Assembly (NCBI RefSeq): GCF_949628265.1 | Contig: NC_088788.1 | Coordinates: 8,308,001-8,372,000 of the forward strand | Direction of reading: 5' to 3' | DNA from: Cloeon dipterum | Taxonomy: Eukaryota; Arthropoda; Insecta; Ephemeroptera; Baetidae | DNA length: 64,000 bases | Part shown: positions 37,303 through 63,479 of the stretch, in pieces | How the letters are laid out: each line of letters begins with the position of its first letter | Position numbering within the stretch: the stretch's first letter is position 1 | The notes under the pieces: generated by a model | The model's database searches: none | What the model saw: only the letters and a program-made list of their open reading frames with translations | What the model was told of the DNA's origin: nothing | Made by a program: the position numbers and the translations under genes

Positions 37303-40300
37303 ATGGTGACCCAACGAAGAAAGCGAGGAAAGTATTTTTGCTAATCTATATCCCAAAAAACTTTGTCGAGTCGGAAGCTATCGATTACTTTCAATTTAAA
37401 CATATCAGAATCTAAAGGTAATAATTTCAACTTTCAATTCAATGTTTTTCTATACAGGCCGTGCGTTTTGATCATACACTACGAGTTTGCCCAATCAGAC
37501 GAAGACCGAAGTGATGACGACAAGATAGACGTCCAAAACATATATTCCACGCTAGAATCAGTCAGTCATCACATTCATGAGATTTCTGCCTCGAAGGAAA
37601 ATTTGCTCGATTTCATCGGTGATGAAGAACAAATCAAGAAAACGTTCAAGCTTCAAGGTTCATCAAAAGGAAATTCAAAAAAATAAAACTAAAATTTCTA
37701 TGTATCTAGGTGAAGAAGCACCCGACCTGTTCATTGTTTTTATTATGACGCATGGAGAGGATACTGGATATTTGCTGGCGTGCACAGAAAAAGGAGCAGA
37801 GTTTTTCACCGTGTCTGAAGTATGCGAACAATTAAAGACGAACCCCATTCTTGGAAACGCTCTCAAGCTTCTCTTTGTTTCGGTATAAATTTAGGTCAAT
37901 AATTTTACTGTCCTGCTCTTAGTGATTATTTCATAGGCATGCCGCGGGGAAATCATGGAAGACGTCATCAATAGCAGGGTGAGAAAAGTATCAAATTCGC
38001 TTCCACAGCGGGGAATGTGGAGCAGTGAGCTCGACGCGAGTAATCCGAAAAATCATAACGCAGTGCGGGTAACAACTGCGCCAGACAGCGACAATTTCGT
38101 CATCATGTATTCCTGCGTCGAAGGTACAAGTTTTACCATCTAACAAACTTTAAATATATTTTTTGCATCTCCACAGGCACATATTCGTTGCGTGATGAAG
38201 GAACGTTGCTAGTTGGTTCCTTCTGTGAATGCTTTAAGAAGTTGGAGAGAGATGTGGGGCTCGATGAGTTTTTGACTCGAATCAAGTGGTACCAACATGA
38301 AGGCAAAACTTTGAAAAAGGGATACGGATCAACACCAGAAGTGAAGATTCTGAAACACAGAAATTTGACTTTGTCCCAGCAGTGCAATGAGAACCAAGGC
38401 GATTTTAGCTACAGGTGGATTTCCAACGCAAATGTTCCTCTTCTGACGCGCAAGGCACATTTCTACATCTCGACCCCAAGCGGGGAAGAAAAATTGCCAA
38501 ATGCCTTGCATAAATATTTTGAGTTTAAAATTAAACACCACGAGAATTTTGAGCAGCTGAAAAGTGCTGGTAAGGTCTTATTTTACATAAATTCCAGATT
38601 TATGATTTTTTTTCAAGTTGTCGATGATTCCAACATAGTGAATGGCTGCGTCCTGATTTGTGTCGTGGCTGAACAGTCCAGGGACAGAGTGAATGGGGAA
38701 ATTTACGTGGAAATAGACGGGAAAAAGATGCCAGCAAAGAAAATCCTAAACACTTTAATTCATCCAGCCACAAAAAACTGGATTGGCAAGCCTAAGATTT
38801 GCATTTTCCTCAACACTCCTCCAGCCATCAGCATTGCGATTGACGGTGCACCGGTGAGTTCCGTCATGTTGTTAAAACACGGCATATTAATTCAGATTTC
38901 AATTTCAAGGCCACGGGGCAAAAATACGAGATTTGTGGGACCATCCATTCTGGATTTCTGACTATTTTTCTTCCTCAAAAAGGTGAATTATACAATTTTA
39001 AATAAACCCAATATATTATTTATTTTAATCTTAGACGCTGTGGATTTGTTTCTTGAAACGCTCAAGGATTTCACTAAACAAGAGAGCGAAGAGCAAAGTG
39101 CCACGTTCCAGCAGTTTTTCTTTAAACTGCTGCAAAAAGCCACACCCGCTAACGGCATTCCGCCAATGATTATCAGCACTCTTCACACAATTCTGGAAAT
39201 GGAATTTCCGTCTCTGATTGCCACTGAGAGCTTCAAAATGACAATGCCAGGACAGTGCTGGGACGTCCCTTTGAAAATCCTTTACCAGATTATCTGCTCG
39301 GGCTTCCAGCGAATCCAGCGTGCAGTTCAGATTTCAAATGAAACAGCTACAGACCTAAGTCTTGACGGAAAATCATCTGTGAGCACCGGAGCCAAGCCAA
39401 TAAGCCATGTTAAAAAGCCAGAAGAGGATACAAGTAAAGAGGAAACGGAGCAGGCGGACCACATCGTGTACTTGGTTTCCGCCGATGCAGGCTCGGGAAA
39501 GTCCAATCTGGTCGAACGCCTGGCAAGCCAGGCCAAAAGATATCGAAGCGTCACTCACATCGACCTGATGATAAACACCAAGTTTCTGAAGAATTTCGAT
39601 TGGAAAAAAGGCTATAAAGCGTTTGTTCAAGAGTATAGAGAGCATATTGGGAAGCCACGGCCGTTCAAATCAGACGAGGTCGTCATTTTGGACGCAATCG
39701 ACGCCTTGCACGGAGACTCACTCGAGAATGTGCTTAAGATGGTGCGACACCTGGCAGAGGACAAAGTCGATCTTTGGATTTTCACCAGACCTGAGAGAGT
39801 GGACACCATAAAGACGAGGCTAGCCGGTGTTTGCATCGTTAGCGTGCTCGAAATGAATGACCTCACCAAGGAGAAAAAGATCAAAATTCTGCAGAGCAGA
39901 GGGTTCAAAGAAGGCCCGATCGAATATATGTTAAACAAAATTGAAGAGGCGCACGCCGACGACCTGACCAGCAATATCGGAATCCTAGATAAGCTGGCCA
40001 CCTTCCCGACTTTATTTTCAGAAACGAAACAAGTCAACGTTTATGAATTGAGCGCCCACGTCGTCGAGTTGGCGATTAAATCGTACTTGGAAAAGCGCAA
40101 AAAAGATTCGGCCATGTGGGCGAGTCATGAGCTGCGTGACAAAATCAAGAAAAATCTGACTGATCTCGCCACCGCGTATTTTACCGGAAATCCTACGGAG
40201 CCGGCAGTCAATGGCAATGCATTTCTTCAGCATTTCGTGGCATACCCGGTGGTTCATGTCAGCGGGACTCTTGCCGCCTACCTCTATATCAGCAAAGGAG

Positions 40301-40416
40301 AAATCAAGAGTGCAGATCAAATTGAACAACTGGCCATTGGGTCAGAGAAGAAAATAATTCTAAAGCGCATGTTTGAAGATGAAAATAAGAATGCGCTTTA
40401 CCAAGAAATGGAATAA
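37303..40416 (+). CDS. Caspase-pseudocaspase-NACHT-like NTPase, copy 1
   Basis: Exons are 37303-37331, 37458-37657, 37710-37882, 37937-38123, 38177-38569, 38618-38853, 38910-38982 and 39035-40416, giving 890 residues in consistent phase. The first caspase domain (about 10-240) has a strand reading CVLIIHYEF, the S1 arginine Arg27, the catalytic His91 (IMTHGE), Cys136 (VSACRGE) and YSLR with Arg202. A second caspase fold (about 260-490) has AE in place of HG in CVLICVVAE and no cysteine after GKPKICIFLNT. A Ser/Glu-rich linker leads to a P-loop NTPase: Walker A ADAGSGKS at 580-587, Walker B VVILDAID around Asp650, and FTRPE at 680-684, like the SRP motif of NACHT domains. No CARD, DED or C-terminal repeats are visible. 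The N-terminus is uncertain: an alternative ATG at 37275 gives a peptide like the other copies but ends in the wrong phase. It is the most divergent copy. A poly(A) signal lies at 40536. Confidence 0.85.
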
Positions 40417-40535
40417 TGCTTCAGCGAGATTGCTATTTGTTGATTAATTTAAAGAAATACTTACGATTATTACTAAACAGTTTGCATTTCCATAAGTGTC
40501 TTTTTTCATCATCATTTTGTTAATTTGTGAAAAAT

Positions 40536-40541
40536 AATAAA
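40536..40541 (+). terminator. Poly(A) signal of caspase-NTPase copy 1
   Basis: AATAAA lies 120 bases after the stop codon of copy 1, in a suitable position for 3' end formation. Confidence 0.5.
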
Positions 40542-40589
40542 ACGTACGTTTGAATTTGTAGTGAAATTTTTACAATTTTCATGCTTATT

Positions 40590-41862
40590 TCATTTGGTGC
40601 CCAATCCTTTTTTCAATAAATTCAGCATAACATCATGCTCGCAAATGTGTAATTTCCGCTTACATCCTGTAACTTTCGTATCGGAGCCAGCCAACCCTGT
40701 GTCCCACCTGATGTGCGTCCGTGGCGGTCCCCACCACATACTTGCGCAATTGTAGTTCATACTCTACCGAATCGGTAGAACTGGACGATAAGCGAGATAC
40801 CTGAACGGACACTTCCACCTCGCTCGACTTCAAGCACTCACTTCAATTATGAAATTCAGTGCGAGAAAAAGAACCATTAATAATTTGTAGAACCGGATTC
40901 AAGGTTTGTGATATATTATTTGTTGTAAACAATTAATGTGCAATTTTTGTGATTTATTTGTTCTACAGTATTGTACTCCTGTTCTTATCTATGAAATACA
41001 AATCTACTGAGGGCTACAACCAAGATTATCATTGCTTATTCTTGACATGTCATATAAAAACATAAATATCAAATATCATGATGATGATTAAAATGACGAT
41101 TAAAAAGGCAAAGAAGCTTTTCCATTCTGGGATTCTCGACTCACCTCCCCACGTCCAACACCCTCTGCCATAAATCTGGTGGAGCGCCTTTCCGTTAACT
41201 TAGTTCGTTGTTCCAGTGAGAGCGGACGGTCACTTTGGCCCATCGTCAGGGCCTGCTCCTGCAGGTAAATATCGCGATTTGAGGTTAATATCGTGATTCC
41301 CGGCTTTATTGTTCCCCTAGAGCAGACCGCACCCCTCTTTTGCCTTCCTTGCCCCTGTGCCCGTGCCGATCCGTTTCACAGCAACATTATCCCAATATAG
41401 TCTCGCATACTCACGAACGCCTCGCGAGGAAATTCATGCTGCGCCGCTAAACAGCTCTGCAGTGCAGGTGGCCTATTTTACCCCTAGTTTGACACAACTT
41501 AAGTGTATTCCCCTGCTCGTCATTTATCTTTTAATCAGATTAAAATTAATTGATTTTCATGATTAGGAAAGTTTGATTGGCATTAGGGAGGGAATATATT
41601 TAGAATCAAGGACGACAATGACACACATGACTTAGACTATAAACAATGAGATAAGATCTAATCAAAATATTGCAAAGAACATTGCAACGCAGTTGAAAAA
41701 AGTCTAAGTTAATATGTTTTTAAATAGCATGTAAAATCAATTCAACGATCAAACATATCCAGTTGGTTAAAAATTAAATTAATTTCATTTAATTCAATTA
41801 TTTCACTGATCACTAATAATACAAAAAAGCGGTATGTTCAAAGCGAACAGGTCGCTAAGCGT
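40590..41862. repeat. Duplicated spacer, left copy
   Basis: This segment downstream of copy 1 is related, block by block, to 57240-58035 downstream of copy 2. Shared blocks include TTTTTCAATAAATTCA, AACATCATGCTC, GCTGCGCCGCTAAACAG, TGCAGGTGGCCTATT and, at the end, CAAAGCGAACAGGTCGC. No gene is seen inside. A patch around 41100-41480 is GC-richer. Confidence 0.7.
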
Positions 41863-42865
41863 CGGCCAATCAAGATAAAGTCAAGTCGGACTAGGCTTTA
41901 TCAAGGTTCGTAAACTTTGCAATGCGCAAAAATCCAGCTGGTAAAACCACCAGTTTTTGAGTTTTTCCACGTTTTTCATTTTGCGCCAAAAATAAGAACT
42001 GTTATAAAATAGCGATGAGAGCTTTATAAGATTGTCGGTCTATTGGTCGTGAAACAAGGGACTTTTATATACTTATTTTGTAAAAAAACAAACATAAAAA
42101 CAACAGCATCGACATTTCCGCGTTACGAGCCTGAATATTTTTTGAAAAAAATAACATCATCTATATTTGCAAAGTATAACAGAACTTGAAATTTTCTCCT
42201 GCGCATTATTAGCTATCGTTAATGACACTTCAATTTTAAGTCTAACAACCAAAATGATAAGATACCGCGGGACGTATTAATAAGTACGAGCGGATTGCAC
42301 TCAGCCTCAATATCAGCAAAACAAGGGGATTCACAAGAACATGATTTCTGCGCACTATCATTGGTAATTTATATTTAATTTTTAAGAGTATATCATTCTT
42401 AGATTTTTCACAATGTCTGTTCACTGATTATTGTGTTCGTCTAACTAAGCAGTCAAAAAAAACCCTGGCTCCTGGGTTGAAGACTCGATCAAAGTTTTTA
42501 ATGTGGGGAATTATGGCTTTTTAACATTTTAATAACTCTCTCCTTTTAGTCCAATCATTTTCACACAGATTCCTTCTAAAGCTAAATTAAAAGTCTTAAT
42601 TTTGGTTCACGGGGTTTGATAGCAAGGGATAATTCCTCAAATGAAAAAAAACATGTTTTGGAGACCTAAGTAACTACTATTTTGTTGTTATTTTCATGAC
42701 CATATTTTGTTTGTAATTAGAGCTCTTGCGTTTATCCTTGGAATTCAGCTAAACTAACAAACCTGCTATTGAAGAAGACAGCGATGAATATAAAACAAGA
42801 GGTATGCAACAGTGGAAGAAATATCGGATAAAATGAATTATCGTTTCAAATTAATAGAAGATCAG
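41863..42865. other. Spacer upstream of the caspase-like exons
   Basis: AT-rich, with no supported gene. A short open piece at 42745-42800 (EEDSDEYKTR, then a GTATGC donor) might be another small exon of the following gene, but it has a stop just upstream and no clear acceptor. Confidence 0.4.
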
Positions 42866-43002
42866 ACTCAAAAACTGCACATGATGGGAAGGAAGGAGCT
42901 GCACTTCTTGAAAAAGAACAGCATGAAGGGTTCGAATTGTCTGAATTGTTACAAATATTGAAGGACATCGACAGAAACTCTAAATTTTTTTTGTTTGCTT
43001 CG
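42866..43002 (+). pseudogene. Caspase exon relic or diverged exon (catalytic-His exon homologue)
   Basis: An acceptor (GATCAG|ACTC) and a donor (GCTTCG|GTAAAG) bound 137 bases with phases 1 to 0, the same as exon 4 of caspase-NTPase copy 2 (exon 3 of copy 1). The translation contains AHDGKEG, LSELLQILKD and KFFLFAS, which align with THGEDTG, VSEVCEQLKT and KLLFVS of copy 1. The core strand before the His is missing (nine codons shorter). No ACRG exon follows before 43247, so the piece cannot form an active caspase as it stands. It is either a decayed paralogue or an upstream exon of the IAP gene. Confidence 0.55.
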
Positions 43003-43246
43003 GTAAAGGACACTACAATTTTGTTTACTTTTGAGATTAACTGACATGGTGACATAGCACATGAGGTAAAGCACACATACTGAAAAGAAAAGTTGAGGTA
43101 AAACTCGAAGCTTTTTCAAGATGAGCGATTTGTAAAAACGAAGACCAACATGGAAAGCCCTGCTTGCATCGTAGGAGGTCAGTGAATTCATTACGTTAAT
43201 TATAGCATTCTGTTAGAACTGATTTTTATTAATTTTTCTCTAATAG

Positions 43247-43573
43247 TTGTGAAGTCGTGCTACAAATTTTTAAGCTGCGTCCTCATATGCGACGTGGCCG
43301 AACAGTCCAGAAACAAAAAAACCCAAATAATGTATGTGAAGGACATGCAGATAAATATTTATTGCTTAGAACCCATTTTAAGTAAACGATATTATAATAT
43401 ATTTTTTCACATTTCTTTAAAAATAAACGAAAAAATTCGCAATAAAGATGACACTGTTATTATGGGTTATAATTGCAATGAAAATATGAGCAATTTTTTC
43501 CATTTATCCGAAATGGAAACTTTAAAAAAGAAAGTCCGCCAACTCTGCAAAGAAAAATGGGACATTGAGAAAG
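43247..43573 (+). CDS. Pseudocaspase-like exon, possibly 5' coding exon of the IAP gene
   Basis: The acceptor CTAATAG|TTGTG and donor GAGAAAG|GTAAAA bound 327 bases, open throughout, phase 1 to phase 1. The start reads SCVLICDVAEQSRN, nearly the same as GCVLICVVAEQSRD in the second caspase domain of copy 1. The end (LSEMETLKKKVRQLC) joins in phase to the first IAP exon at 43632. That exon begins with a segment (SVPVFMMRHVYKDELLL) resembling the last strand of a caspase small subunit. A 109-codon open frame in AT-rich DNA argues for constraint. I infer that it may belong to the IAP transcript; transcript data would decide. Confidence 0.5.
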
Positions 43574-43657
43574 GTAAAAAATACAACTTTTCACATATTG
43601 TGCAATAAAATAATTACATAACATTACGTAGGTGATCACACATCCGTCCCTGTTTTT

Positions 43658-45652
43658 ATGATGAGGCATGTATACAAAGACGAATTATTGTTAAGCGACC
43701 AGGCTGTTGGACTGTTTAAGAATGGGCAAAATGAAGACGAAAATGGATTATTTGAAGAAGATGGATCAGATAGAAAGGAGGGAGAACTAAACGCATCGCT
43801 GTCAAACCATCGTGATTACTTTGTCAACGGGCATTTGCACAAAAAGCTAAACCTGGATTTTGCCCTGCACCGATATTTTACGTTTCGAGAAGAGATCGAC
43901 CATACGAAGAAATTAAAATTAGCTCAAAGTGGTTTCTTCTACGTGAACGACGATAAAAGCATACAGTGCCACTACTGTTTCCTGCTACTTCCATTTTTAC
44001 ACTTCGACGGCTGCGAATTGAACCATGACAAAGCAAACGAAGGAAATGCATCAGCCTTGTGCGAAAGTAAAATTAGGTATGTTTTAATTACTTGCTCGAA
44101 GTCTTTGAGTTACCATATCTCTGTCTATAGGGAAAAATGCCATTTAATGGAGGGAGAAAATGTCCTCGACGTCCCGATCTTAAATCCCAGCAACTACATT
44201 TTTGAGTCACACCGACTGTACTCATTTTTGTCAGCGAATTGGCTAAATGCGTTCGTAAGCGCCTTTGACCTTGCGAAACATGGATTTTATTTCACTGGTG
44301 ACGAAGACAGCTGCAGATGCATGTTTTGCAAGCTGGAAGTCAGGGGCTGGGAGCTAGGAGACACGGCGGAGGGCGAACACCGACGCTGGAATCCTCACTG
44401 CCCGTTTTTGCAACCAGGCAATCAAACTGGAAATGTCCCCATCGGCCTAGAATTGAGTTTCTCTTCGCACGACAGTTTAAGCAACCCCTTTGTGCCGACT
44501 CCGATAACTAAATGTAAGTGAATATTCGTTAATATTTTCTAGGGTTTGGATTTTAATAGGGTTGTTTATATTTTCTGAGTATTACTTTATTCAAACACCG
44601 AATTTGCACGAAATATGCAAATTCTAGAGTTTTGATTGACTCTTTAAACAATCATCTTAATCCTTCTTAAGTGTTAAAAATCAATCCCTTTATCTGCAAT
44701 TTATTTAGGCTTCTAAAAATTAATTTTTTTGGTGTTTTTAAATAATTTTTCAGACTAATTTTGGCGCCAGTGAATTTTTAGGTTAGTAAAAATTGTTCCA
44801 ATTTTAATTCTGAACCACTTAGTAAGATTTACGGCCTTCCAATTTATTTTTGAACACGAATTTCTACGGTCACATCCCAAAATTTAAAGGAAAAAGGACG
44901 ATTTCGTGAATTTTCATAAATAATTTGTATTGTAATATCTGATTTTAGACGGACCCCATTTAAAATTGTGCAAAAACACGAAGCAGAACGTTTTGATTGA
45001 GGCACTAGGCATCACACCGATCGGGGACATGAAATACCGGCAGTATAGAACTTTGCAGTCGAGAGAACATTCATTCAAATCGTGGCCGAAACAGATTTCC
45101 CAAACGCCAGATGTACTCTGTGCTGCAGGATTTTTCTACACTGGTGTGTGTTCGCCAAACGAACAATGACTGCAATAATTTATTGCATCTCCTCTTAAAA
45201 GGATCCGGAGACCGAGTCATCTGTTTTCAATGCGGAGGAGGTTTGAAAGACTGGCACCCCGACGACAGTCCATGGATTGAGCACTCCAAATGGTTCAGCT
45301 CGTGTCCATATTTAAATATCAAAAAAGGAAAGAAGTTCATCGATCACATAATTCGCACCAACAAAGAGCAAGAATCCTTGGCCAGTGACAAAACAGCAAT
45401 GTAATTTCCTAATCAAATTTCACCCTAATCCTTGAGAGGGAAAAACATTTATTCAACTAATAAATAATCTTCAAATTCAGAGAATCCCCCGTGCGTGGAA
45501 GTTTGCAGTGCTGGGTGTGCAAAAGCCAAGCTTCAAATTACGTCAACCTTCCTTGCGGACACATCACCAGCTGTGTCAACTGCGTTGCAAAAGAAACCAC
45601 TTGTAGAGCGTGTGATGGCAAAATACTTGCATACATAGAAGTCTTCCTTTAA
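43658..45652 (+). CDS. Inhibitor of apoptosis protein, three BIR domains and a RING finger
   Basis: Exons are 43632-44076 (first internal ATG at 43658), 44131-44513, 44949-45143, 45202-45400 and 45481-45652. From that ATG the protein has 455 residues. BIR1 is atypical: LAQSGFFYV and CHYC are present, but the spacing to the last His and Cys is irregular. BIR2 (HGFYFTGDED, CMFC, 16 residues, H, 6 residues, C) and BIR3 (AAGFFYTG, CFQC, 16 residues, H, 6 residues, C) are canonical zinc-binding domains. The C-terminal RING follows the IAP pattern, with CWVC, LPCGH and CRAC. Known IAPs bind caspases through BIR domains and ubiquitinate them through the RING in the cytosol. Its position between caspase-NTPase genes suggests, but does not prove, that it regulates them. 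The start may lie further upstream, in the caspase-like exon ending at 43573. Confidence 0.88.
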
Positions 45653-45824
45653 AAATCTGATAGAAATTGGTAGGCACATTGAAATATTAAGATTAAATAA
45701 TTATAATTATTAATTCACTTGTTAATATATACAGTTTTTTTTATTTCTTGTGTGATATGTGATAATATATTATCAAGGGGTTACTTATATATTGCATTGT
45801 TAGAGTTGCAATTTAAGATGTCAG

Positions 45825-45830
45825 AATAAA
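45825..45830 (+). terminator. Poly(A) signal of the IAP gene
   Basis: AATAAA lies about 170 bases after the IAP stop codon, in AT-rich DNA. Confidence 0.45.
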
Positions 45831-47630: not shown

Positions 47631-48776
47631 ATGTCGGTATTGCGGCTACTTTGGCTCGTCTGTTTTTGCTCGGTGGTTGCACTTGCAAGACCCCCAATTT
47701 TGTGAGTCACGATTTTATCTAAAAAAATTTTGAATGATTTGATTTTTAATGCATCTTCATTTCTGTTACATCCAAACCAGCGACCACTACTATAGAAAGT
47801 TGTCTCAAAACCAAGGCCACATCAACAATCAAGAAGCGAAATATGTAACACTGATTTGAATTTGATTTCAATATTTCTCTTACTCAATTTATCTTGCACA
47901 GCGAGAGATGGATTCTGCCATTAAACAATTGCAGTACAAGGTGGGCGCCAGGAAGCAAAGTCTATTGTAACAATATATATTTATAGAATAAATTTTATTT
48001 TGTCTCCAGTATGATTTCTTGTTGACCGTGATTAGGAAGCTCTCACAAGAACAGGAGGTGTTAAATAGAGAGGTGAAATGTTTATTTATGTTTATACAAA
48101 TATATAGCCCTTCAAATCATATGAAAAAAGTAACAGGGCATAAAAGAAACTAACTTTAATTATTAAAATGTATTTTTTTCAGTTGGAAGAACAGCGCCAG
48201 TCAAAACGTGAGTATCGCTATATTTAATATTTTAATCTGAGAACTGATGCATTTTCCAGGATGGGTTGAAGCAACGCTGGCAAACGGAAAAAGCTACAGA
48301 TTTTCCCTCGAAAAAGTGAGTTCTGGGCAAAAATAAATAATTTCTCTTAATTTCTATTGTCACGCTGCACAGAAAACGTGGCAAGAGGCAAAGGAAAGCT
48401 GCGAGAAGAACGGTATGCGCTTGGCAAGCCCGAAAACTCAGAGAGAAGTCACTATCCTGCACCAAAAACTGAAGGAATTGGAGCCAGGTTATAATCGATT
48501 AATTAAATTTTAGAGCTCACATCAATTTAGCATTAATTATTTACAGAATCTGGATTTTGGCTCTCGGCATCGGACGTGGGACTGACGAATACCGATTTTC
48601 AGTGGCTGGACGGCGAAAAGTTGCCCCTCGACAGTTCTTTGTGGGAGAAGGAGAGGCTGAACGCCCCTCTTAATTACGGCAAGACCGCAAAATCCTGCGT
48701 TTTTATCAGGAAAATACTAGACGATAAACTGTATGAAGAAAAATGCTCCGACTACACCAATTTCATTTGTGAATAA
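47631..48776 (+). CDS. Secreted C-type lectin with coiled-coil stalk
   Basis: Exons are 47631-47701, 47781-47844, 47902-47940, 48010-48072, 48183-48207, 48260-48315, 48373-48487 and 48547-48776, giving 220 residues in phase. A signal peptide (MSVLRLLWLVCFCSVVALA) is followed by a short linker. A helical, heptad-like stalk comes next (about 45-90; IKQLQYKYDFLLTVIRKL). Then comes a C-type lectin domain with the cysteines of the two usual disulfides (ESCEKNG, KSCVFI, EKCSDY, FICE), a WLSASD motif and QWLDG. No EPN or QPD calcium-site triplet is visible, so calcium-dependent sugar binding is doubtful. Such proteins act outside the cell in pathogen recognition or agglutination in insects. The stalk suggests oligomerisation. 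A poly(A) signal lies at 48898. Confidence 0.88.
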
Positions 48777-48897
48777 CTTAATTATGCACATCTTAATTCA
48801 CAATTCTTATTTAAAAAAAATTCTGATTTTAATTTGTTTATTTTCTTGGATTTTTTACATTTCATTGCACCTCTTTTAAAATGAAATATATGATATG

Positions 48898-48903
48898 AAT
48901 AAA
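48898..48903 (+). terminator. Poly(A) signal of the C-type lectin gene
   Basis: AATAAA occurs about 120 bases after the stop codon. Confidence 0.5.
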
Positions 48904-48935
48904 GCATTTGATTAAAACTGTTGAAAAATAGAATT

Positions 48936-49890: not shown

Positions 49891-49894
49891 TCAT

Positions 49895-51109: not shown

Positions 51110-54100
51110 ATGACCCAAGAAGCAAAGAGGGTGAAATTGAGCGGCAGATCATTGAATAGGGCCACTACCAATGGTAAATAAGATTTATTTATTATATTTG
51201 CTTGATATTTACAGTTCAATTTACAGAAATTTCTACGAGAAAAAGTATTGGCTACTGGGATAAAGACGAAAAAAAAATTGTTAGGTATGATTTAATTACG
51301 ACATTTTCTCACTAATTATTCTCTCTTTTGAATTGTTTTCTTTGATTTTCCTACATTTGTTAAAGAATTAAACTGAGTTAAAAAAAATTAAATTAATCTC
51401 AGCACCAATACCTTGACTCTAACGGCTCAGAGTTTCCCTTTTTTTCTTTTCTTTACTATTTTTTTTGCCCATTTATTATTGAATTAACTGAACCGCAAAT
51501 CGCCTTTCTCTTCAATAAATCACAGCATCCACAAAACTGTCTGAAATTTAATTTTTAATCACAGTAGCAGTTGTTACAAAAATTGATTTCTTAAAAATAT
51601 TAAAAATAAATGGATTTATAAAAGGGCAAACCTCCCTGATTGATCGTTTTAAGAAAAATGCGTCATTAATGCAATAATATGAGTTGCAGCGTCAAAATTT
51701 ACAGTGGATGAGTACTGACAAATAATTTGTATTTATTAATATAAGTATTCCAAACAGACTTACTATTTTTCTTACATTTTAAGATTAAACCAGTACACAT
51801 ATGAATTATTTTTGTCTTAAAATAATTTAACACCTATTTGCTATGAAAATTGAGAAAGAGCTAAAATTATTCCTGGTGTCTGTTTTAACTTGTGAGAAAG
51901 TTGGCTGCAAAGTTTGCATGCTTATCAAGTGGCGAGCATTGTCTCCTTATTGTAAGTCGTGATTTATTGTTCGCCAAAAGGTTAATATTAACGTTATAAT
52001 TCGCACACCGTTGGATGGACCGTGACGAGAGGAATCAAAACCAAGCAAAAATTGCACCCGTGACTGTTTTTTTTCCGGAAATGAGGCAAAATCTTAAATT
52101 TAGCTTATTCCGTCCTAATTTCTTTATTGCACATTGCTGAGCATATTATTTAAACTAACAAGTGAAAGTCTGGAAGTTTTAGTCAACATAATTGAAAATC
52201 ATTTCAATTGTTGCCCTCTGTTAATCCTCTTTAATTATAAAATTTTTTGGAAAATTTACCAGGCCAACATGCACTTTGATTATTCACTACGATTTCGCCG
52301 ACCAAGAAAAACCCATGAATCGAAGTGAAGCTGACGAAAGAGACGTCGGAAATATCAAGTCTACTTTCAAACCACTCGGTAATGTTTGTGAGACATTTGA
52401 TCGGAAGGATAAAGTGCTGGATTTTATTGGCAGTAAGGATGAACTAAGAGCGAAATTCCAGCTCGAAAGTAAGCTATAGTTATTTTGAGTTCGTATCAGA
52501 AACTATACTTTTTTGTGATATATTATGTAGATGGCCAGACACCCGAGTTGTTCATTGTTTTTATCATGACGCATGGAAACAAGGATGGAAAATTAACAAC
52601 ACACTATGACGAGGAATTTAACGTGTATGAAGTGTGCGACAAACTGAAAACAAACCCTTTACTTAAAAATGCCCTGAAACTTCTATTCGTTTCTGTGAGT
52701 AAAGATAAAACTGTTTCATGCGCACGCTAATTGATACATCTAACATAAGGCCTGCCGTGGAAATATTCTGGACGAGGTCACTCATGAGGAACATGATGCG
52801 CAAATCAATTTTATAGAGGACGCAGTTTACAGCAAAAAATTGGACACAGAAAATCCGGACAATGTGAATGCAACACGCGTGACAACTGACCCCAACTGCG
52901 AGAATTTCGTCCTTATGTTTTCCTGCGTTGAAGGTCTGCAATTTTCTTCGTTTACAATTGAATCTCATGAATTTATCTCGTCCGGCAGGCACATATTCCC
53001 TGCGCTCCGAAGGAACGTACTTGGTCACGTCCATCAGTGAGTGTTTCAAAGAGTTGGACAAGGATGTGGACCTCGAGGAGTTTCTAACCAGAATCATGGG
53101 CTATCAACATGACCCCAATCGAAGAGCGGAAGGATTCACATCAACGCCAGAAGTCAAGATTTTCAAGCGCAGCAGACATCTCACCATTGCCAAGCAGTGT
53201 GCTGAAAAGAAATACAATGATTTCAGTTACAACTGGATGTCCGACGCTAAGTCCCATCTGCTCACGCGAAAAGCACATGTCTTCGCAGCTTCAAACGAAA
53301 CATACCAGTCAGTAAGCGATGAGTTGAATAAACATTTTCAATTCGAACCAAAGCGCTGGAAAACACTGGAAGAGCTGAAAGATTCAGGTTAGGGAAAATT
53401 TTCAATCCATTTCGTGTGTTCAAATCCCTTTCTTTTTACAGTTTCACATGAAAGTGGAGATTTTGATGGCTGCGTACTGATTTGTGTCGTGGCTGAACTG
53501 GTTGAGAACGAAAACCGAGAAGTTTGTGCGAAGATTGACGGGGATACAATCGAAATAAAATCTATCCTGGGCATCCCGATCGGTCCTACGACTGCGAAAT
53601 GGGTTGGAAAACCTAAAATTTGTGTTTTCCTAAACACAAACACCGTTTTCCAATCTTGTTCGATCGATATACATCAGGTACAAACATTTTGTTTCAGTTC
53701 AATAATTTACACAGTTAAAACTCCATTTTTCAAGACTGTGACAGATATTTAAAAAATAACCCTTTTGTGAAATCGAGACAAAGCGTTAGTTTGAAATATG
53801 TATTTTGGAGTGGTTTGTTGGTTATGCCGTTTATTGAATTGTATGTCTTCTCTTCGAGGACACAGGACAAAGCATAAGAATTTTAACGGTTATGTTTCTT
53901 TATGATCTTAAGCAAAAAATTTAATAAATATTAAATCTTAATTTCGGTTATTGTAAAATACTGGGCAAACGTCTCAAAACCTGTAGGTTGTTATTTGAGG
54001 ACTAAACATGGAAAGTGATTCTACTGAATGTCCACCATTTTGTTACAGTCAACCCCGTATTATTTGGTATGAGATACTGAATTTATTATGTATGTTTCAG

Positions 54101-55639
54101 AATTACAACAAGACGAAATTATCGATCAGCGGAACCATCCACGCGGGTCTCTTATCTATTATCCTGCCACAAGCAAGTATGAATGGAGCGGGATTAAATA
54201 TAGAAATATTTTTGTAACTATAGTAATTTGTTGTTTCAGATGCAGTTAAGACTTTCATCGATACCCTCAATGATTTCACTTCTCAGAAGAAAATAGAAAG
54301 CGCCACATTCCAGCAGTTCTGTTTTTCATTGCTACAAAAATCACAGACCAACAGGAACATCCCTCCGATGATGATCTCGACTCTACAAAAAACCTTAAGA
54401 ATGAGGTTTCCGCCACCCATCATAACGGAATGCTTCACAAAGACTACGAATGGGAATACAAGGCCTTGTACCATAAGCGATCTTGAGTCCTTCATCAGCA
54501 TCAATATCAAAAAGCTAAAACTCGTATTTGCCGAGCCGAATTCCCGTGGCGCAGAAGTCGAGGTCGATGAAAACAAGTCGTCCATATTACGGCAAAATGC
54601 AACGCCTTTCCCAACAAAAGCGACAGAAGTTTCAAAAACTGAAGAAGTCACTTCAGAGGAAGCTGTAGACACGGTGCACGTGGTGTCTGCCGATGCGGGC
54701 TCGGGAAAGTCCGAACTGGCTAAGTATCTCACTTTTTTCGCCCAGAGCACTCGAGAGGCAACATGCGTGGACCTGATGACGATCATGTACCAGTTTGTGA
54801 AGAGATTCGACTGGGGGAAGCAACAAAATGGTCTCTCAGTTTTTGTCCAAGAGTGCGGAGAGTATATAAAGACGGAACTGCAGAACGGACCGAACGACCG
54901 AGTCTTGATTATCGACGCGATTGACTCCTTGTTTGAAGACTTGCGGAAAAATGTGCTTGAGACAGTGAGAGGACTGGCGGTAAACAAGGTGCCAATATGG
55001 ATTTTCACGAGGCCCAAATGCAAAGATGAGTTGCTGTCTCGTCTTTCTGAAATCTGCTCACTCAGCGTGATCGAAATCGACCCTCTTTCCGAAGAGAAAC
55101 AAACCGAATTTCTGCAGCAATGGGGTTTTAAAAAAGTACAAATCGACCAACTCCTTGATAAAATCAAGGAGCAAAAAGCCGAGGACCTGATCAGCAAGGT
55201 TGGCTACCTGGCAAAGCTCTCAACCTTTCCTGACCTAGCGAAAAATCTGGAAACCGTCAATATTTACAATTTAAGTGCACATATCGTTGACACGGCGATC
55301 AGGTCGTACCTAAACAAACAAAAGCCAGATCTGGAAATTTCGAAACGTAACGAGGTTTTTGACAAAATCAAGAATGAACTCGCTCATGAGGCCTGCAATT
55401 ATTTCTTATCAACTCAAATCCAGAAGCAAAACTCAATTCAACAAGGGAAAAAAGCCCTCCAAGACCTCTTCTTCAGATACCCTGCGGTCGAGGTGAACGG
55501 TACCCTGGCCGCCTACCTCTTCGTCAGAAAAATGGAAAGCGAACTGGATGAGAAGCTTAAGACGCTCAAGGATGATGCCAAGAAAGCAAGCCTTGAACGC
55601 ATGGTTAACTTTCAACGCGAAATCTTGAATGTGTTTTGA
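51110..55639 (+). CDS. Caspase-pseudocaspase-NACHT-like NTPase, copy 2
   Basis: Nine coding exons: 51110-51173, 51227-51284, 52263-52468, 52531-52694, 52750-52933, 52989-53387, 53442-53677, 54101-54176 and 54240-55639. All junctions are GT-AG and in phase, giving 928 residues. Caspase domain: CTLIIHYDF, Arg61, His124 (IMTHGN), Cys166 (VSACRGN) and YSLR with Arg231, so all catalytic and arginine pocket residues are present. The pseudocaspase has VVAE for the His-Gly site and FLNTN for the Cys site, then a small-subunit-like segment ending IPPMMISTLQKTLRMRF. NTPase: Walker A ADAGSGKS at 613-620, Walker B RVLIIDAID around Asp688, and FTRPK at 718-722. NACHT-like helices (YLAKLSTFPDLAKNLETVN) follow. 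There is no death-fold prodomain, only about 40 variable N-terminal residues. By eye it is much closer to copy 3 than to copy 1. A poly(A) signal lies at 55671. Confidence 0.9.
51900..52060. repeat. Old MITE-like block in intron 2 of copy 2
   Basis: The block TTGGATGGACCGTGACGAGA followed by GGAATCAAAACC resembles the reverse complement of the TTAA MITE centre. It also matches 59530-59690 in the same intron of copy 3, so it predates the duplication of the two genes. Confidence 0.45.
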
Positions 55640-55670
55640 TTTAGGCAATACTGCATCGGTTTGCTAATTT

Positions 55671-55676
55671 AATAAA
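55671..55676 (+). terminator. Poly(A) signal of caspase-NTPase copy 2
   Basis: AATAAA occurs about 30 bases after the stop codon. The flanking 3' sequence is related to that after copy 3. Confidence 0.45.
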
Positions 55677-55739
55677 TGTAATAATATGTTATTTCTACCA
55701 CCTTATCTTTGCATTACTTATTTTTTAAACATATTCTTA

Positions 55740-57239
55740 ACTGAATTTATTATATTTTATTAAAAATTAGTAGCAGTTTGATAGTCATATTATTGCATTT
55801 AATTGATTTCTCCCGCTATTATTGATTGGTGGAGCAAAATTCCTACACCAGAGAAACGAAATAGCCCTTCGTCCAACTTTTGCAATTAAAAACGTCTTGC
55901 AAACGTTTGCAAGCTGTGCCGCACAACAGCCTTTCGCTGCGAGTTGCCTGCTTTACAAGCGGCTTACTTAGATTTCATACAAATTGTGGAAAAAGCAGCA
56001 GTTTAGTTGATTCGTTCAGGACAGGTATTCAAGAATTTATTTGCTCGGTCCTTTTACAGTGCAATAATTTGAACTGAGGAGTAACTGATAGCGCTACAGG
56101 AGGTTCAAAGTGCTTTACTAAGTTTCAAGGAAAAGGAAACAACAGAGCAGATCAGAAAAATGATAAAGAGAAATGGTTGTCCTATTGAGCGCAAAACATT
56201 TAGCTAAAAAGGTCTCATTGCTAGTGAAGCTTCCACAGAGCAGGTAAAAATAGTATCTCTTCACTCAGTAAGTTTAAAAATGGACCTAAATTATATGTAA
56301 AAACTAATCCAGCACGAAAATTTGAGTCTAATATATAAATGCAAACGCACCAGTTTCGCTGGCTCACAACGAAATTGTGCTCTGCCGCCTCTATACACAG
56401 TTGGCCGTTCTTTGCATCATATTGATCAGCGACAACGCCCCGTGGCCTCTTTGAGCCCGATACTCCATGCAAATAAAAGTTTAGAAAGTGTTAACACTCA
56501 CCAGGAATGTCTCGAATCCTAAACCATGTAACTGGCACCCCTGAAAAAAAACAACCACACAACACAGTTCAACTCACAATTCACAACTTTTTCAGTTTGG
56601 CCCTAGCCTAAAATAACAACTCTAAATTCAACTAAAACATTATAGCTGAACTAGGTTAGCGCAAACTTAATACATTGCTCCATTATTTGCAGACACTGAG
56701 AACATGAAATTTAATTTAAAAATAGCTTGGATTGGCCGATCCGATATAATTCTCTGACCAATCCTTTTATTTCTAATTTACACTAGTCTGGCGCGAAATA
56801 GAGTGCAAAAGAGTGACAATAATGTATACCGTTAGCTACTCAATGGGGTTTCTGAAAAAACTGCTAAATGATGGATAACATTTTAAAGGTATTATTTAGG
56901 TATTACTCGAATTTATTGGATCATATCAGGCTAACATCAGTTCAGAACATTTTGCATTGTTGGCCTTAGCAAGTGGTGCAAAAAACAAAAAAAAAATGTT
57001 TTGTATTTTTATTGTTGTGTTCTGAATGTGGGGAGGTGTGGAGCATAGTTGCTCTGCTGATCCGCAATAAAATCACTTTGAATCTAATTGGTATGTAGCT
57101 GTTCAATAAATCTTAATCTCATAGAACAATTTTCCTCCTTGACGATGAGGTATGCCGCCAACGTTACGCTCTGGATCCTTGAATGCGGAAAATCCCAGAA
57201 TCGGCAATTTCCTTTCGGCTAATTTCCCTTAGTGAAAAA
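55740..57239. other. Intergenic DNA after copy 2, no gene seen
   Basis: Mixed AT-rich sequence with short frames on both strands and no recognisable element. A richer patch at 56340-56520 carries overlapping frames of about 65-80 codons with no family resemblance. Confidence 0.4.
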
Positions 57240-58660
57240 AAATCTTTTTTCAATAAATTCACGTCAGCATAAATAACATCATGCTCACAAGCGTAGCTAC
57301 CCATGTGTAATTTCCCCTCACACCTCACATCCTGTCACTTTCACTAAAAGCCAACCCTGTGGCCCACCTGACATGCGCCCAACACTTTTCTACCCACAAT
57401 TATTTTGTCTTTATTTTATCCCTCTCTTACTTAGTTCGCTATTCCAGCGAGAGCAGACGGTCACTTTGGCCGAGGGTAATATCGTGATTCCCAGCTTTAT
57501 TGTTCCCCTATAGACAAGACCGCACCCCTGCTCTTTTGCCTCCCTGGCCCCTTTACCCATGTCATTCCGTTTCACAGCAATATTCTTCCATTCTAGTCTC
57601 GCACTCACAAACGCCTAGCAAGGAAATTCATGTGCTGCGCCGCTAAACAGCTCTTCAGTGCAGGTGGCCTATTCCCCCTCCCCCCCCCCCCCCAGATTGA
57701 CAAAACTGAATGCCCTGCTCATCTTTTCTCTTTTTATCAGATTGAAAAAAATTGGATTTTCATGATTAAATTTGGAAAGGTTGATTGGCATTAGGGAGGG
57801 AATATATTTACAATCAAGGACACATGACTATGACTATACACAATAATATGATAAGATAAATAATTCACCACATTGCGACGCAGTTAAAAAAAGTCTAAGT
57901 TTTATTTAAAAAGCATGAAAAAAACAATTCACCGGTCAAACATAGCCAGTTTGCTAAAAATTAATTCAATATTTTCACTGATCACCAACATTACAAAATC
58001 AAATTGATGAAAGGACTTTACAAAGCGAACAGGTCGCGGTTTCATAAAACTCGAAGCACTCTACGTGTGCACAGGTACACGCTGATGCCACCACGAGTTA
58101 TCTCGTCTTTAGGATACCTCATTATCAGTGAAAAAAACCACTTACACGTTTCTCGCTTCTTATGCACATTTTCCCAGGAGTTAAAATCAAAATTAACAAG
58201 ATCTTTTAAAATTGGTTAAAAGTTTTCAACTCTCATTGCTCTCACTACGTCATCCATTTTCCCAGAATATTGCAAAATACGTGTTTGTTGTGAACTAATA
58301 TGAAAAAAATCAAGGTATTATATTTTTGTTTCAATTTTTTAAAAAGGCATATTGTAAAAATACAATTACTAGTAAAAATGACGGTTAAAAATGTATTTAT
58401 ATTAAAATCACATTAAGTCCTCAAAATAAGGTGCCTAATCTTAAAGTTAAGATAAGATCGTTTTCATTATCGCGCCTCTCAAGCAACGTGCAGCAATTTC
58501 GATAAAAAAAGTGGAGAGGAACTAAAATTTAAGGTCGATCCAGAGTTGCGACCGCGATGACAGCGGACACCAGCAACCAAAATACGAGACGCAGCTAGCA
58601 ACAGGAAAAATCCGAGTTACCGCACGCGGCTGTGAAAGTGTTAGCCTGAAGAAGCGCTTC
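57240..58660. repeat. Duplicated spacer and promoter block, right copy
   Basis: The left half (57240-58035) matches 40590-41862 and the right half (58068-58660) matches 49895-50480. Here the two halves are joined directly, whereas upstream of copy 2 they are separated by 8 kb holding the IAP and lectin genes. A poly-C run of 14 bases lies at 57680-57693. The right half is the presumed promoter and leader of copy 3; a leader intron ends at TTTGTTGCAG (58879). Confidence 0.7.
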
Positions 58661-58906
58661 TCTCGTTACACATCCTGACGGCTCAATTTTTTGTCCATCG
58701 CTTCGCTCGAGACATGTTTTTTAACATTCAAACAATAGTTTGTCACAACCGAATAAATTTCCTCACATGAATGTAGTAAGTAATATAAATATTTCAAAAT
58801 ATCTTCTCTTTTTTAGGCTTTTAAACGGGATAGACTTCATTTCTGGAAAATTTCTCTGTATTATGAATTTTTGTTGCAGATATAAACCATCATATCGAGT
58901 AAGAAA

Positions 58907-61900
58907 ATGAGTAAGAGTAGTTCATTGAATGTGGCCCCTACCAATGGTTAATAAAATTTATTTGTACTTTGCCTAATATTTATAGCATTCAAGTTAAATT
59001 TGCAGAAAATTCTACAACAAAAAGTATTGGCTACTGGGATAGAGACAAAACAAACGTTGTTGGGTATGATATAATTATGTATTTCTCTTAAACTATTCTC
59101 TCTTCTTGATTGTTATTCTTTGATTTTATTATTGTTGTTTTTTAGAATTATACAGATTTAATAAAAGGAATCTCGGCCCAATTCCGTTAATCGAACGGTT
59201 CATATTGACATGACCGTTTGCGAACGATCAGGAAAGCCGAGGAGCAAATCCGCGCCACTAAGTCGCCGGCCAGGATTTGATACTATAAAAGGGGGCCTCC
59301 CGCCACGACTGAGTTGAGCCGCGAATAACAAATTGAGTCTCACCGCAATGTCTAGTTTCCCTTGATTTTTCTTTTATTCCTAATTTTTTGCCTAATTAAT
59401 ATTGAAAAAAAAATATAATTTTAAATCAGTAATCTTCCTGATTGATCATTATAAGAACAAATATAGCATATCATTATATGCTCTGAAAATAGGGAGAGTG
59501 CTAAAATTATTTCAGGAGTCCGTTTTATTTGCGTTTTCAAAGTTTGCATGCTTATCGAGTTGCGAGCACGTCTCCTTAGTGAAAAACGTGATTTAATTCG
59601 TCAGACAGTAAATTTACGTCATAATTCGCACACCCCGTTGGGTGGATCATGATGAGAGGAATCAAAACCGAGCAAGATCATTGCCCGATCTTCGTTTATA
59701 ATTTTTTGAAAAATATGGCGAAATCTGAGAGTTAACTTTTTGAGTCCTAATTGCGCATTGTTGAATATTATTATTTAAGGTTCCAATAATTGAAAGTCTG
59801 TTAATTTTAGTCAACAATTCAAAATCATTTCAATTGATTCCCTCTGTCAATCCTCTTTAATTGTAATATGTACATAATAACCTCGCTGTCATATCTCTTT
59901 TATAACACTTTTTTTGAAATTTTTACAGGTCAACATGCATTTTGATTATCCACTACGATTTCGCCGGTCGAGAAAACCCCGTGAATCGCAGTGAAGATGA
60001 CAAAATAGACGTCGAAAATATCAAGTCTACTTTCAAATCAGTCGGTCATGTTTCTCAGACATCTTATCCGAAGGATAAATTGCTGGATTTAATTGGCAGT
60101 GAGGATGAACTAAGAACGGAATTCCAGCTCGAAAGTAAGCTAGATTTTATTTTATAATATTAAAGATTAGAATTTTTCATTATATATTTTTAGAGGGCCA
60201 GACACCCGAGTTGTTCATTGTTTTTATCATGACGCATGGAAACAAGGATGGAAAACTGACAACACATCATGACGAAGAGTTTAACGTGTATGAAGTGTGC
60301 GAAAAACTGAAATCAAACCCGTTAGTTCAAAATGCCCTGAAAATTCTATTCGTTTCTGTGAGCAAAGATAAAAAAGTTTCATGCGCAAACTAACTGATAT
60401 AACAAAGGCGTGCCGTGGAAATATTCTGGACGAGGTCACTCAACAGAAATATGATGGATTGAAAATCACTCTTCCAGACGACGCAGTTCACAGCAAAAAA
60501 TTGGACACTGAAAATCCGAAAAACCTGAATGCAACACGCGTGACAACTGACCCCAACAGCGAAAATTTCGTCATTATGTTTTCCTGCGTTGAAGGTCTGC
60601 AATTTTCTTCGTTTTCAATTGAATATCAGGAAAATATTTCATCCCGCAGGAACATTTTCCCTGCGCTCAGTTGGAACTTACTTGGTCAAATCGATCTGCG
60701 ACTGTTTCAAAGAGTTGGACCGGAATGTGGACCTCGAGGAATTACTGACCAGAATCATGGGGTACCAAACTAACCCCAAACAAAGAGCGAAAGGATTCAC
60801 ATCAACGCCAGAAGTCAAGATTTTTAAGCGCAGCAGACATCTCACCATTCTCAAACAGTGTGCTGAAAAGAAATACAGTGATTTCAGTTACAACTGGATG
60901 TCCGACGCAAAGTCCCATCTGCTCACGCGAAAAGCACATGTCTTCGCAGCTTCCAAAGAAACATACCAGTCCGTAAGCGAGGAGTTGAAAAAACATTTTC
61001 AATTTGAACCAAAGCGCTGGAAATCACTTGAAGAGCTGAAAGATTCTGGTTTGGGAAATTTTTCAATCCATTTCCTCTGTTTAAATCACTTTCCTTTTTA
61101 CAGTTTTACATGAAAGTGGAGATTTTGATGGCTGCGTACTGATTTGTGTGGTGGCTGAATTGTTCGAAAATGAAAACAAAGAAGTTTGTGTGATGATAGA
61201 AGGAGAGAGAATCGAAATAAAATCTATCCTGGCCATCCCAATCGGTCCTACCACTGCGAAATGGGTTGGAAAACCTAAAATTTGTGTATTCCTACACACA
61301 AACGCGATTTCCCCATCTTGCTCGATCGACATACATCAGGTACAAACATTTTGTTTCAGGGTTGGAACAGTTATCTGTACAGATTTTTCCAAGGCCATTT
61401 TTTCGGGAAAATCCAGCGAGAAATAATCGAAAAATAGTAAAAAAAATTAATTGACTTTTACTTTTTAAATATTCAACTTAAAATAATCTTGAGCTAGAAA
61501 AACTGTAAAGAATAATTTACATCTTAGAACGTCATTTGCCATCTCTCACAACTGACTAAAATATTAAAAATAAAACCCATGGGTGAAATCAAGACTTACG
61601 CGTCAATATGAAATCTATTTTGGAGCTGTTTGTGGGTGATTTTGCAGTTTATTACATTTTCAGACTTTTATTTTAGGACACAGGATGATACATTTTTTGA
61701 AATGTAAGGGTTGCGTATCTCTATGGATATAAATGAAAATTGTCTTCACATTGCTAATTATAAAATAGTTTTTTTTTTCATTTAAAAGTCTCAAACCCTT
61801 TAGAAAAAGGCCGTAGTTTTTTAAGAACAAACGTGGAACGAGTTTTTACCTAATGTCCGTACCTTTGTTACAGTTTATTTGTTATGAGATACTGAATTTG

Positions 61901-63479
61901 TGTTAACGTATATTTAAGAACTACAACAAGACGAAATTATCGATCAGCGGAACCATCCACGCGGGCCTCTTATCTATTATCCTACCACAAGAAAGTATGA
62001 ATGAAGCCAGATGAAACATAGAAATGATTTTATAAATTAATACATTTTATTTCAGATGCAGTTAAGACTTTCATGGAGACCCTCGATGAGTTCACTTCTC
62101 AGAAGAAAATTGAAAACGCCACTTTCCAGCAGTTCTTTTATTCACTGCTTCAAAAATCAGAGACCAACGGGAAAATCCCTCCTATGATTGTCACGACTCT
62201 ACACAAAATCTTAAGAATGAGGTTTCCACCACCCATCGTAACTGAATGCTTCACAAAGACTACGAATGGGAATACAAAGCCTTGTACCATAAGCGATCTT
62301 GAATCCTTCATCAGCCATTACATCACAAAGCTAAGACTCGTATTTGCGGAGACGAGTTCCCATGGCGCAGAAGTTGAGGTCGATCATACAATTCCAAAGT
62401 ACCCAACAGCAAAACCTTTTTCCTCAAATGAAGCGACAGAAGTTTCAAACACCGAAGTAGAAACAGAGGAAGCTGTAGATGAGCTCACGGGCTCAGAGGA
62501 AGCCGTAGACACGGTGTACGTGGTGTCGGCCGATGCGGGCTCTGGAAAATCAGAGCTGGCTAAGTATCTCACTTTCTTCGCCCAGAGCACTCGAGAGGTG
62601 ACATGCGTGGACCTGATGACGATCATGTACCAGTTCGTCAAGAGATTCGACTGGGACAAGCAACAAAATTGCCACTCAGCTTTTGTCGAAGAGTGCGGAG
62701 AGCATATAAAGCAGGAACTGCAGAACGGACCAAACGACCGAGTCTTGATTATCGACGCCATTGACTCCTTGTTTGAAGACTTGCGGAAAAATGTGCTTGA
62801 GACAGTGAGAGGACTGGCAGAGAACAAGGTGCCAATGTGGATTTTCACGAGGCCTGAATGCAAAGATGAGTTGCTTTCTCATCTTTCTGGAATCTGCTCA
62901 ATCAGCGTGATCGAAATCGACCCTCTTTCCAAAGAGAAACAAACCGAATTTCTGCAGAAATGGGGTTTTGAAAAATTAAAAATTGATCAACTCATTGAGA
63001 AAATCAAGCAGCAAGAAGCCGAGGACCTGATCAGCAAGGTTGGCTACCTGGCAAAGCTCTCAACCTTTCCTGACCTCGCGAAAAATCTGGAAACCGTCAA
63101 TATTTACAATTTAAGTGCACATGTCGTTGACACGGCGATCAAGTCGTACTTAAACAAACAAAGGCCAGATTTGGAAATTTCGAAACGTAACGAGGTTTTC
63201 GACAAAATCAAGAATGAACTCGCTAATGAGGCCTGCAATTATTTCCTAAAACCTCAAATCCAGAAGAAAAACTCTATTCAACAAGGGAAAAAAGCCCTCC
63301 ACGATCACTTCTTCAGATACCCTGCAGTCGAGGTGAGAGGGACCCTGGCCGCCTACCTCTTCGTTAGAAAAATGGATATCGAACTGGACGAGGTGCTTGA
63401 GACGCTCAAGGATGATGACAAGAAAGCAAGCCTTGAACGCATGTTTAACTTGAAACGCGAAACTTTAAATTTGTTTTGA
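58907..63479 (+). CDS. Caspase-pseudocaspase-NACHT-like NTPase, copy 3
   Basis: Nine coding exons: 58907-58946, 59006-59063, 59929-60134, 60194-60357, 60408-60594, 60650-61048, 61104-61339, 61919-61994 and 62056-63479. All are in phase, giving 929 residues, and several exon lengths equal those of copy 2 (58, 206, 164, 399, 236, 76). Caspase domain: CILIIHYDF, Arg53, His116 (IMTHGN), Cys158 (VSACRGN) and FSLR with Arg224. The pseudocaspase again reads VVAE and FLHTN at the lost catalytic sites. NTPase: Walker A ADAGSGKS at 614-621, Asp689 in LIIDAID, and FTRPE at 719-723. The linker before the P-loop has an internal duplication ending twice in EEAVD. The short second intron carries an extra TATA-containing insert absent from copy 2. 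The role is inferred as for the other copies: an NTP-regulated cytosolic cysteine protease of the death or immune type. Confidence 0.9.
59165..59370 (+). promoter_or_regulatory. TATA-containing GC-rich insert in intron 2 of copy 3
   Basis: A GC-rich island with TACTATAAAAGGGGGCC at about 59281-59297 is followed some 20-60 bases later by CTGAGTTGAGCC and an ATG (59348) in a short frame. Nothing similar is seen at this place in copy 2. It looks like a core promoter, either a solo LTR or other promoter-carrying insertion, or an internal promoter for a transcript starting with the caspase core exons. No flanking duplication was identified. Confidence 0.4.
59530..59690. repeat. Old MITE-like block in intron 2 of copy 3
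   Basis: A counterpart of 51900-52060. It shares CAAAGTTTGCATGCTTATC, then TTGGGTGGATCATGATGAGA and GGAATCAAAACC. Its presence in both genes at the same intron position shows it was inserted before they duplicated. Confidence 0.45.

Follow-up and report, generated by a model that had tools for sequence, protein, structure and literature searches.

Tandem genes predicted to join a caspase, a probable pseudocaspase and a NACHT-type NTPase in the mayfly Cloeon dipterum

Three tandem gene models with shared intron phases

A 64 kb stretch of the mayfly Cloeon dipterum genome (NC_088788.1, forward strand, positions 8,308,001 to 8,372,000; GC about 37%), here called the window and numbered from its first base, carries three tandem gene models, each of which would join a caspase, a probable pseudocaspase and a NACHT-type nucleoside triphosphatase (NTPase) in one polypeptide. 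All three lie on the plus strand, as do their domains described below, and each reads without interruption from ATG to stop (3/3). Copy A (37303-40416) has eight coding exons (37303-37331, 37458-37657, 37710-37882, 37937-38123, 38177-38569, 38618-38853, 38910-38982 and 39035-40416) and encodes 890 aa, with the first exon the least certain. Copy B (51110-55639) has nine (51110-51173, 51227-51284, 52263-52468, 52531-52694, 52750-52933, 52989-53387, 53442-53677, 54101-54176 and 54240-55639) and encodes 928 aa, and copy C (58907-63479) likewise nine (58907-58946, 59006-59063, 59929-60134, 60194-60357, 60408-60594, 60650-61048, 61104-61339, 61919-61994 and 62056-63479), encoding 929 aa. At the amino acid level B and C are 81% identical, and A is 46-47% identical to either. 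The models were assembled manually, guided by the sequence and by how A, B and C resemble one another, and many of their introns are short, at about 50-60 bases. All 23 of the 23 introns are GT-AG, yet their borders were picked to fit GT-AG; because of this choice, stronger support for the models comes from the seven introns common to A, B and C, whose phases are 2,1,0,1,1,0,1 in each copy, in agreement with an earlier note on this DNA that had described three genes with the same exon phases. That note had placed the start of copy A at 37303, which by eye is in frame, with the ATG at 37275 out of frame. Also by eye, the first donor of copy A (exon 37303-37331) looks altered relative to B and C, and a shifted start restores the frame.

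Models of this kind could join units that are expressed separately, namely a caspase gene that stops short of the last exon and, apart from it, a NACHT gene. The copy A intron 38570-38617, which is open in frame (open reading frame, ORF, 38059-38961) and whose splicing is uncertain, would allow for this. We nevertheless consider such an arrangement improbable, since the seven intron phases are shared by all three copies, including one at 46-47% identity, the frame is intact in 3/3, and the last exon begins within the second module. In all three copies the second module ends, and the NACHT domain lies, within that one exon, so that this join is independent of our splice guesses, and a single modelled frame runs across caspase and NACHT.

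An N-terminal caspase with an intact dyad

The N-terminal domain had been read as a caspase fold with His and Cys, and every copy bears this out. Peptidase_C14 (Pfam) matches the N-terminus in 3/3, p20 and then p10, over spliced domains at 37458-38382 in copy A (E 1.2e-16; His in MTHG, Cys in SACRG), 52263-53197 in copy B (E 4.4e-16) and 59929-60858 in copy C (E 1.4e-15). Searched against the Protein Data Bank (PDB), the B domain matched 69 sequences at E ≤1, with caspases from E 2.5e-5; the best 60 of the 69 comprise 57 caspases and 3 unrelated proteins, and the caspases matched include caspase-1, -2, -3, -6, -7, -8, CED-3 and Nc, plus designed or ancestral ones. A profile search gave 91 PDB sequences at E ≤0.001, and the best 60 of these 91 are all caspases. 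MTHG and SACRG, present in 3/3, fall opposite SHG and QACRG of solved caspases, which contain the catalytic His and Cys. Moreover, in the HMMER alignment the p10 arginine (YSLR) is aligned with that of solved caspases, and the NRS/DRS arginine lies at most 1 residue off the p20 arginine; these p20 and p10 arginines may correspond to residues of the Asp pocket (S1). By these sequence comparisons the first domain is an animal-type caspase with an intact dyad, and we predict that it is proteolytic. An LD-x-x-NP motif is kept in the inter-subunit linkers of A, B and C and may be a processing site.

A probable pseudocaspase in the middle

The module that follows (spliced, with approximate borders at 38383-39222 in A, 53198-54424 in B and 60859-62240 in C) had been described as a second caspase fold, and for this part of the earlier reading the evidence is divided. 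A three-copy profile of the module matched 3 PDB sequences at E ≤10, the top one being the large subunit of an ancestral caspase-6 at E 0.02, which aligns co-linearly through p20, the GKPKI strand included. Compared by hhalign with five PDB caspase fragments, the module gave a probability of 14.6%, an E of 0.0019 and a score of 28.1 over 75 columns, a score reached by 0/300 column shuffles (best shuffle 21.6). These 300-shuffle controls exclude the fragment u108639; an earlier hhalign comparison that included it beat 60/60 shuffles, a test that is partly circular because u108639 was picked for matching the second module. A reversed-profile control against the PDB gave one unrelated match at E 0.88, and is a weak control, with two of its three rows mistyped. 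The gene structure points in the same direction as the profiles, with intron phases 1-0-1 repeated through both caspase modules; by our own reading two of these three introns occupy roughly corresponding sites in the two modules, and the phase-0 intron is shifted by about 14 residues. The catalytic dyad is missing from the second module of each copy: the His-Gly site reads AEL/AEQ, and the Cys of the other site is not conserved in A.

Several results weigh against a second caspase fold, and would favour a middle module that is an unrelated spacer in a simple caspase-NACHT fusion, a reading that is compatible with the others considered here. Pfam gives no caspase match to the second module in 3/3 copies, and hhalign of the module against the first caspase alone gives no meaningful match. 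When the copies' own first caspase is added to the profile the score becomes 19.7, which was reached by 8/300 shuffles, and an AlphaFold prediction of the copy A p10 together with the p20 stretch of its second module is uninformative, with a predicted local distance difference test score (pLDDT) of 39. Opposed to a spacer are the co-linear caspase p20 at the top of the PDB search, the PDB-only profile score that no shuffle reached, and the repeated 1-0-1 phases, displaced at one of three introns. Because of the 300-shuffle controls we have slightly lowered our estimate for a spacer, which we now regard as unlikely. Judged from its profiles and introns, the second module is probably a pseudocaspase that has lost the catalytic dyad.

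A NACHT-type NTPase and a predicted helical C-terminus

The last exon had been proposed to encode a P-loop NTPase with Walker A ADAGSGKS, a Walker B aspartate and an FTRP motif, and all of these elements were recovered. Pfam NACHT matches copy B at E 4.2e-8 (core at 54680-55123, ADAGSGKS at 54689-54712) and copy C at E 8.2e-8 (core at 62520-62963), both above the cut-off, and ADAGSGKS, DAID and IFTRP are invariant in 3/3 copies. We take ADAGSGKS to be the Walker A, DAID to be a Walker B with two acids and FTRP to be the sensor motif; in place of the acidic residue that usually follows the second Asp, B and C have Ser and A has Ala. Structure prediction, which the earlier note had named as a check for an NTPase fold in this exon, was in accord: an AlphaFold model of the B last exon (from three sequences) has a mean pLDDT of 55 and block means of 59-84 in the P-loop core (residues 141-280). 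The core is thus predicted, while a winged helix is not resolved in the model. Among 50 Foldseek matches at E ≤0.001 are NLRP3 (ranks 3, 10 and 11), NLRP7 and NLRC4, beside ORC, RFC and FtsH, which makes the predicted fold AAA+/NLR-like.

Three points tell against assigning the domain to NACHT. The copy A core (39481-39882) reaches only E 2.9e-4, below the Pfam cut-off; the top two Foldseek matches are ORC/Cdc6 and RFC, and TM-scores are about 0.2; and the NTPase exon compared with PDB sequences has a best E of 0.19, those listed being unrelated. With ORC/Cdc6 and RFC at the top, Foldseek alone indicates AAA+/STAND rather than NACHT, and our identification of the domain as NACHT comes from the Pfam profile. 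The region behind the core in copy B (55124-55636) appears mostly helical in a low-confidence prediction of secondary structure, and at E ≤1 it matches neither LRR nor WD. No LRR, WD40 or other repeat domain was found in the last exon at E ≤1, and the exon ends in a stop in 3/3.

It had also been claimed that protease and NTPase share one polypeptide without death-fold adaptors, which fits what we observe. Pfam detected no CARD or DED in the modelled N-termini at E ≤10, and the N-terminal extension of copy B, about 40 aa, is too short for either. A death-fold search of plus-strand ORFs of at least 45 aa gave no match in the 30 of 66 that were scanned (at E ≤1 in 8/8 upstream of B, 11/11 upstream of C and 10/37 upstream of A, and also none in 1/10 between A and a gene D that follows it), a length limit at which shorter exons would be missed. 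By the features tested, these predicted proteins are neither NLRs, as no repeats were found, nor initiator caspases, as no CARD or DED was found.

Tandem duplication and constraint

In a self-comparison of the window B and C share long parallel blocks (82.8% identity over 1919 columns and 83.5% over 2037), A is more distant, and a stretch 3' of A (41281-41826) matches 57472-57998, between B and C, at 76%. These repeated blocks and matching intergenic stretches fit tandem duplication, as had been suggested, and a tblastn search with the three proteins turned up no additional complete copy in the window. Ratios of nonsynonymous to synonymous substitution (dN/dS) by the Nei-Gojobori method (NG86, 100 bootstraps each) are 0.48 for B-C (0.39-0.60), 0.27 for A-B (0.19-0.34) and 0.28 for A-C (0.18-0.36). 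The A ratios are rough, as dS of A to B or C is high, at 1.7, which counts against leaning on them. By domain, B-C dN/dS (NG86) is 0.26 for the NACHT, 0.30 for the second module, 0.50 for the C-terminus, 0.60 for the linker and 0.62 for the first caspase, and YN00 values are similar in those comparisons that YN00 resolved. All pairwise values lie below 1, by which measure the protein is under constraint. Taken together, the earlier description of the locus largely holds: what it recorded is real and not a product of chance, and all of it was confirmed save the second caspase fold, which we grade as probable.

Relation to known systems

As a rule, an animal caspase is recruited to an NTPase that is a distinct protein. 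Activation of a caspase by a STAND NTPase is well known from the Apaf-1/CED-4/Dark apoptosome and from NLR inflammasomes, which differ from the proteins described here in that NTPase and caspase are separate and are joined via CARD or other death folds. The comparisons that follow refer, unless a main text is named, to excerpts of the cited papers. The layout had been likened to bacterial and fungal STAND proteins, and at the level of domain arrangement this likeness stands. Bacterial metacaspase-NACHT-WD40 proteins have been described that, as here, hold a caspase-fold protease and a NACHT in one protein and in the same order (PMC3501461). However, their protease is of metacaspase type, their sensor is WD40 and the excerpt does not mention a second caspase module, whereas the mayfly proteins have an animal-type caspase and no repeat that we could find. 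In fungal NLRs with a CHAT protease that activates gasdermin the protease is likewise part of the NLR, in what has been called a "contracted pyroptotic-like pathway" (PMC10197012), but CHAT is caspase-related rather than an animal caspase, and a pseudocaspase is not mentioned in the excerpt.

The likeness is one of layout only: the mayfly caspase is animal-type by its PDB matches, and scans of limited sensitivity confirmed no bacterial, viral or plasmid relative. Two scans each of GTDB bacterial contigs and IMG/VR viral contigs, with two short peptide patterns per scan and so of limited sensitivity, confirmed no relative; tblastn against plasmids, with the B NACHT exon only, found none; PADLOC gave no match, and NCBIfam gave matches only below cut-off, including a NACHT antiphage protein at E 0.0016. 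We therefore do not find transfer from bacteria or a virus supported, within the sensitivity of those pattern scans.

For the tandem of pseudo- and active caspase there are animal precedents, which the earlier note does not mention. Acropora caspase-X has an inactive and an active caspase domain in one protein, for which a c-FLIP/caspase-8-like model was put forward, and killing by the active domain is reduced in HeLa cells when the inactive one is fused to it (PMC4715348), the experiment nearest to the cis control we propose below. It differs in that its inactive domain comes first, and the word NACHT is absent from the main text (PMC4715348). Mammalian caspase-16 (CASP16) is a further case, a pseudocaspase derived from duplicated caspase exons with splicing phases as evidence, although there the pseudocaspase is N-terminal and the excerpt mentions no NTPase (PMC12198278). 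Amphioxus has hybrid immune genes in which fusions, LRR-caspase, TNFR-caspase and DED-NACHT among them, make immune pathways shorter, but we found no caspase-NACHT fusion among those described in the excerpt (PMC2575513). Within arthropods, shrimp LvNLRC and other NLR-like proteins carry a NACHT, with no caspase described in the excerpt (PMC12370184), and Drosophila and C. elegans reportedly lack NACHT (PMC2575513). The order caspase-pseudocaspase-NACHT in an animal was not found in the excerpts of open-access literature consulted, though database annotations of this family may exist already. By the literature found, STAND-linked caspases are a known kind, while this order appears new and is surprising in an animal.

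A caspase with a NACHT of its own would demonstrate that animals too have evolved the contracted layout of bacteria and fungi, and its presence in one protein would allow NTP state and caspase activity to be measured jointly. Moreover, the order of active first and inactive second caspase, together with an NTPase, would provide a natural test of the control that a pseudocaspase exerts over its partner.

A proposed mechanism

We give about even chances to a self-contained, NTP-switched caspase with the probable pseudocaspase as its partner in cis, functionally a one-protein inflammasome. In each protein an active caspase would be followed by a probable pseudocaspase, then by a NACHT NTPase and a helical C-terminal region. 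At rest the NACHT would bind ADP, and the pseudocaspase would pack on the caspase via the caspase dimer face, like FLIP on caspase-8, keeping it zymogen-like. Either a partner or the helical C-terminus would detect the trigger, probably infection or cell damage, upon which the NACHT may exchange nucleotide and oligomerise. Caspases brought together in this way would activate and cleave Asp-containing substrates, leading to cell death or an immune signal. Tandem duplication would have given the three copies, and the pseudocaspase itself may stem from an intragenic duplication of caspase exons. Two considerations speak against this scheme: no sensor domain was recognised in the proteins, and a dimer formed constitutively in cis could do without the NACHT for dimerisation.

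Neighbouring genes

Between A and B lies gene D (43150-45652, plus strand; 7 exons, 582 aa), an inhibitor of apoptosis (IAP) gene with three BIR domains (E 6.2e-43) and a RING (E 3.1e-7), of which the last two BIR domains and the RING match NAIP, DIAP1, cIAP1 and XIAP in the PDB. Close to the start of its second exon (43247-43573, plus strand) lie 24 residues with homology to the pseudocaspase exon present in all three copies. This match has an hmmsearch E of 1.5e-4 among 2769 six-frame segments, its offset from the acceptor and its phase are the same as in A, and its score with A was reached by 0/2000 shuffles. A nearby ORF (42832-43041) that by eye resembled a decayed p20 exon was dropped, being absent from the profile search and from the Pfam results. 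A C-type lectin domain gene (47640-48770, plus strand; Lectin_C E 1.3e-13, exon borders by eye) follows gene D, upstream of B.

This neighbourhood bears on what the caspase proteins might do. They could be regulators rather than executioners, in which the caspase-pseudocaspase pair holds other caspases as a FLIP-like decoy, the NACHT is a scaffold, and the IAP belongs to the same inhibitory circuit. The constraint on the second module (B-C dN/dS 0.30, NG86) would suit a decoy, as would the position of gene D in the array and its share in the pseudocaspase exon; an excerpt on coral caspase-X likewise reports an inactive domain that reduces killing (PMC4715348). However, if the proteins were decoys we would expect loss of the first-domain His and Cys in some copy, and both are kept in 3/3 despite A standing at 46-47% identity, which makes this role seem unlikely to us.

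Caspases and STAND switches also act in development, and immunity is not proven by sequence, so an NTP-dependent caspase of development or cell remodelling, with no immune role, might instead be encoded here. Tandem duplication and an adjoining IAP and C-type lectin gene are more typical of immune loci, circumstantial as this is, and we regard a developmental role as rather less likely again than that of a decoy.

Going beyond a self-contained NTP-switched caspase, which we continue to prefer, we can tentatively speculate, with somewhat more doubt than belief, that these genes encode animal cell-death receptors of a new class, in which a caspase is joined to its own inactive partner and to a NACHT with no CARD or DED adaptor. 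Such a class would have arisen within an arthropod lineage, as the animal-type caspase and the NACHT in one large exon suggest, and would have expanded in tandem, with the IAP, through its captured piece of a pseudocaspase exon, as a dedicated brake.

Rfam and tRNA scans gave no matches. Elsewhere in the window two exons, 14143-14628 on the minus strand and 29738-30223, look acyl-CoA desaturase-like by eye, with an EHRFHH motif that we take to be a hallmark of these enzymes, though Pfam did not confirm the single segment tested. A repeat of 445-475 bases is present in three copies that are 93-94% identical (5228-5700, 8660-9103 and 10210-10679).

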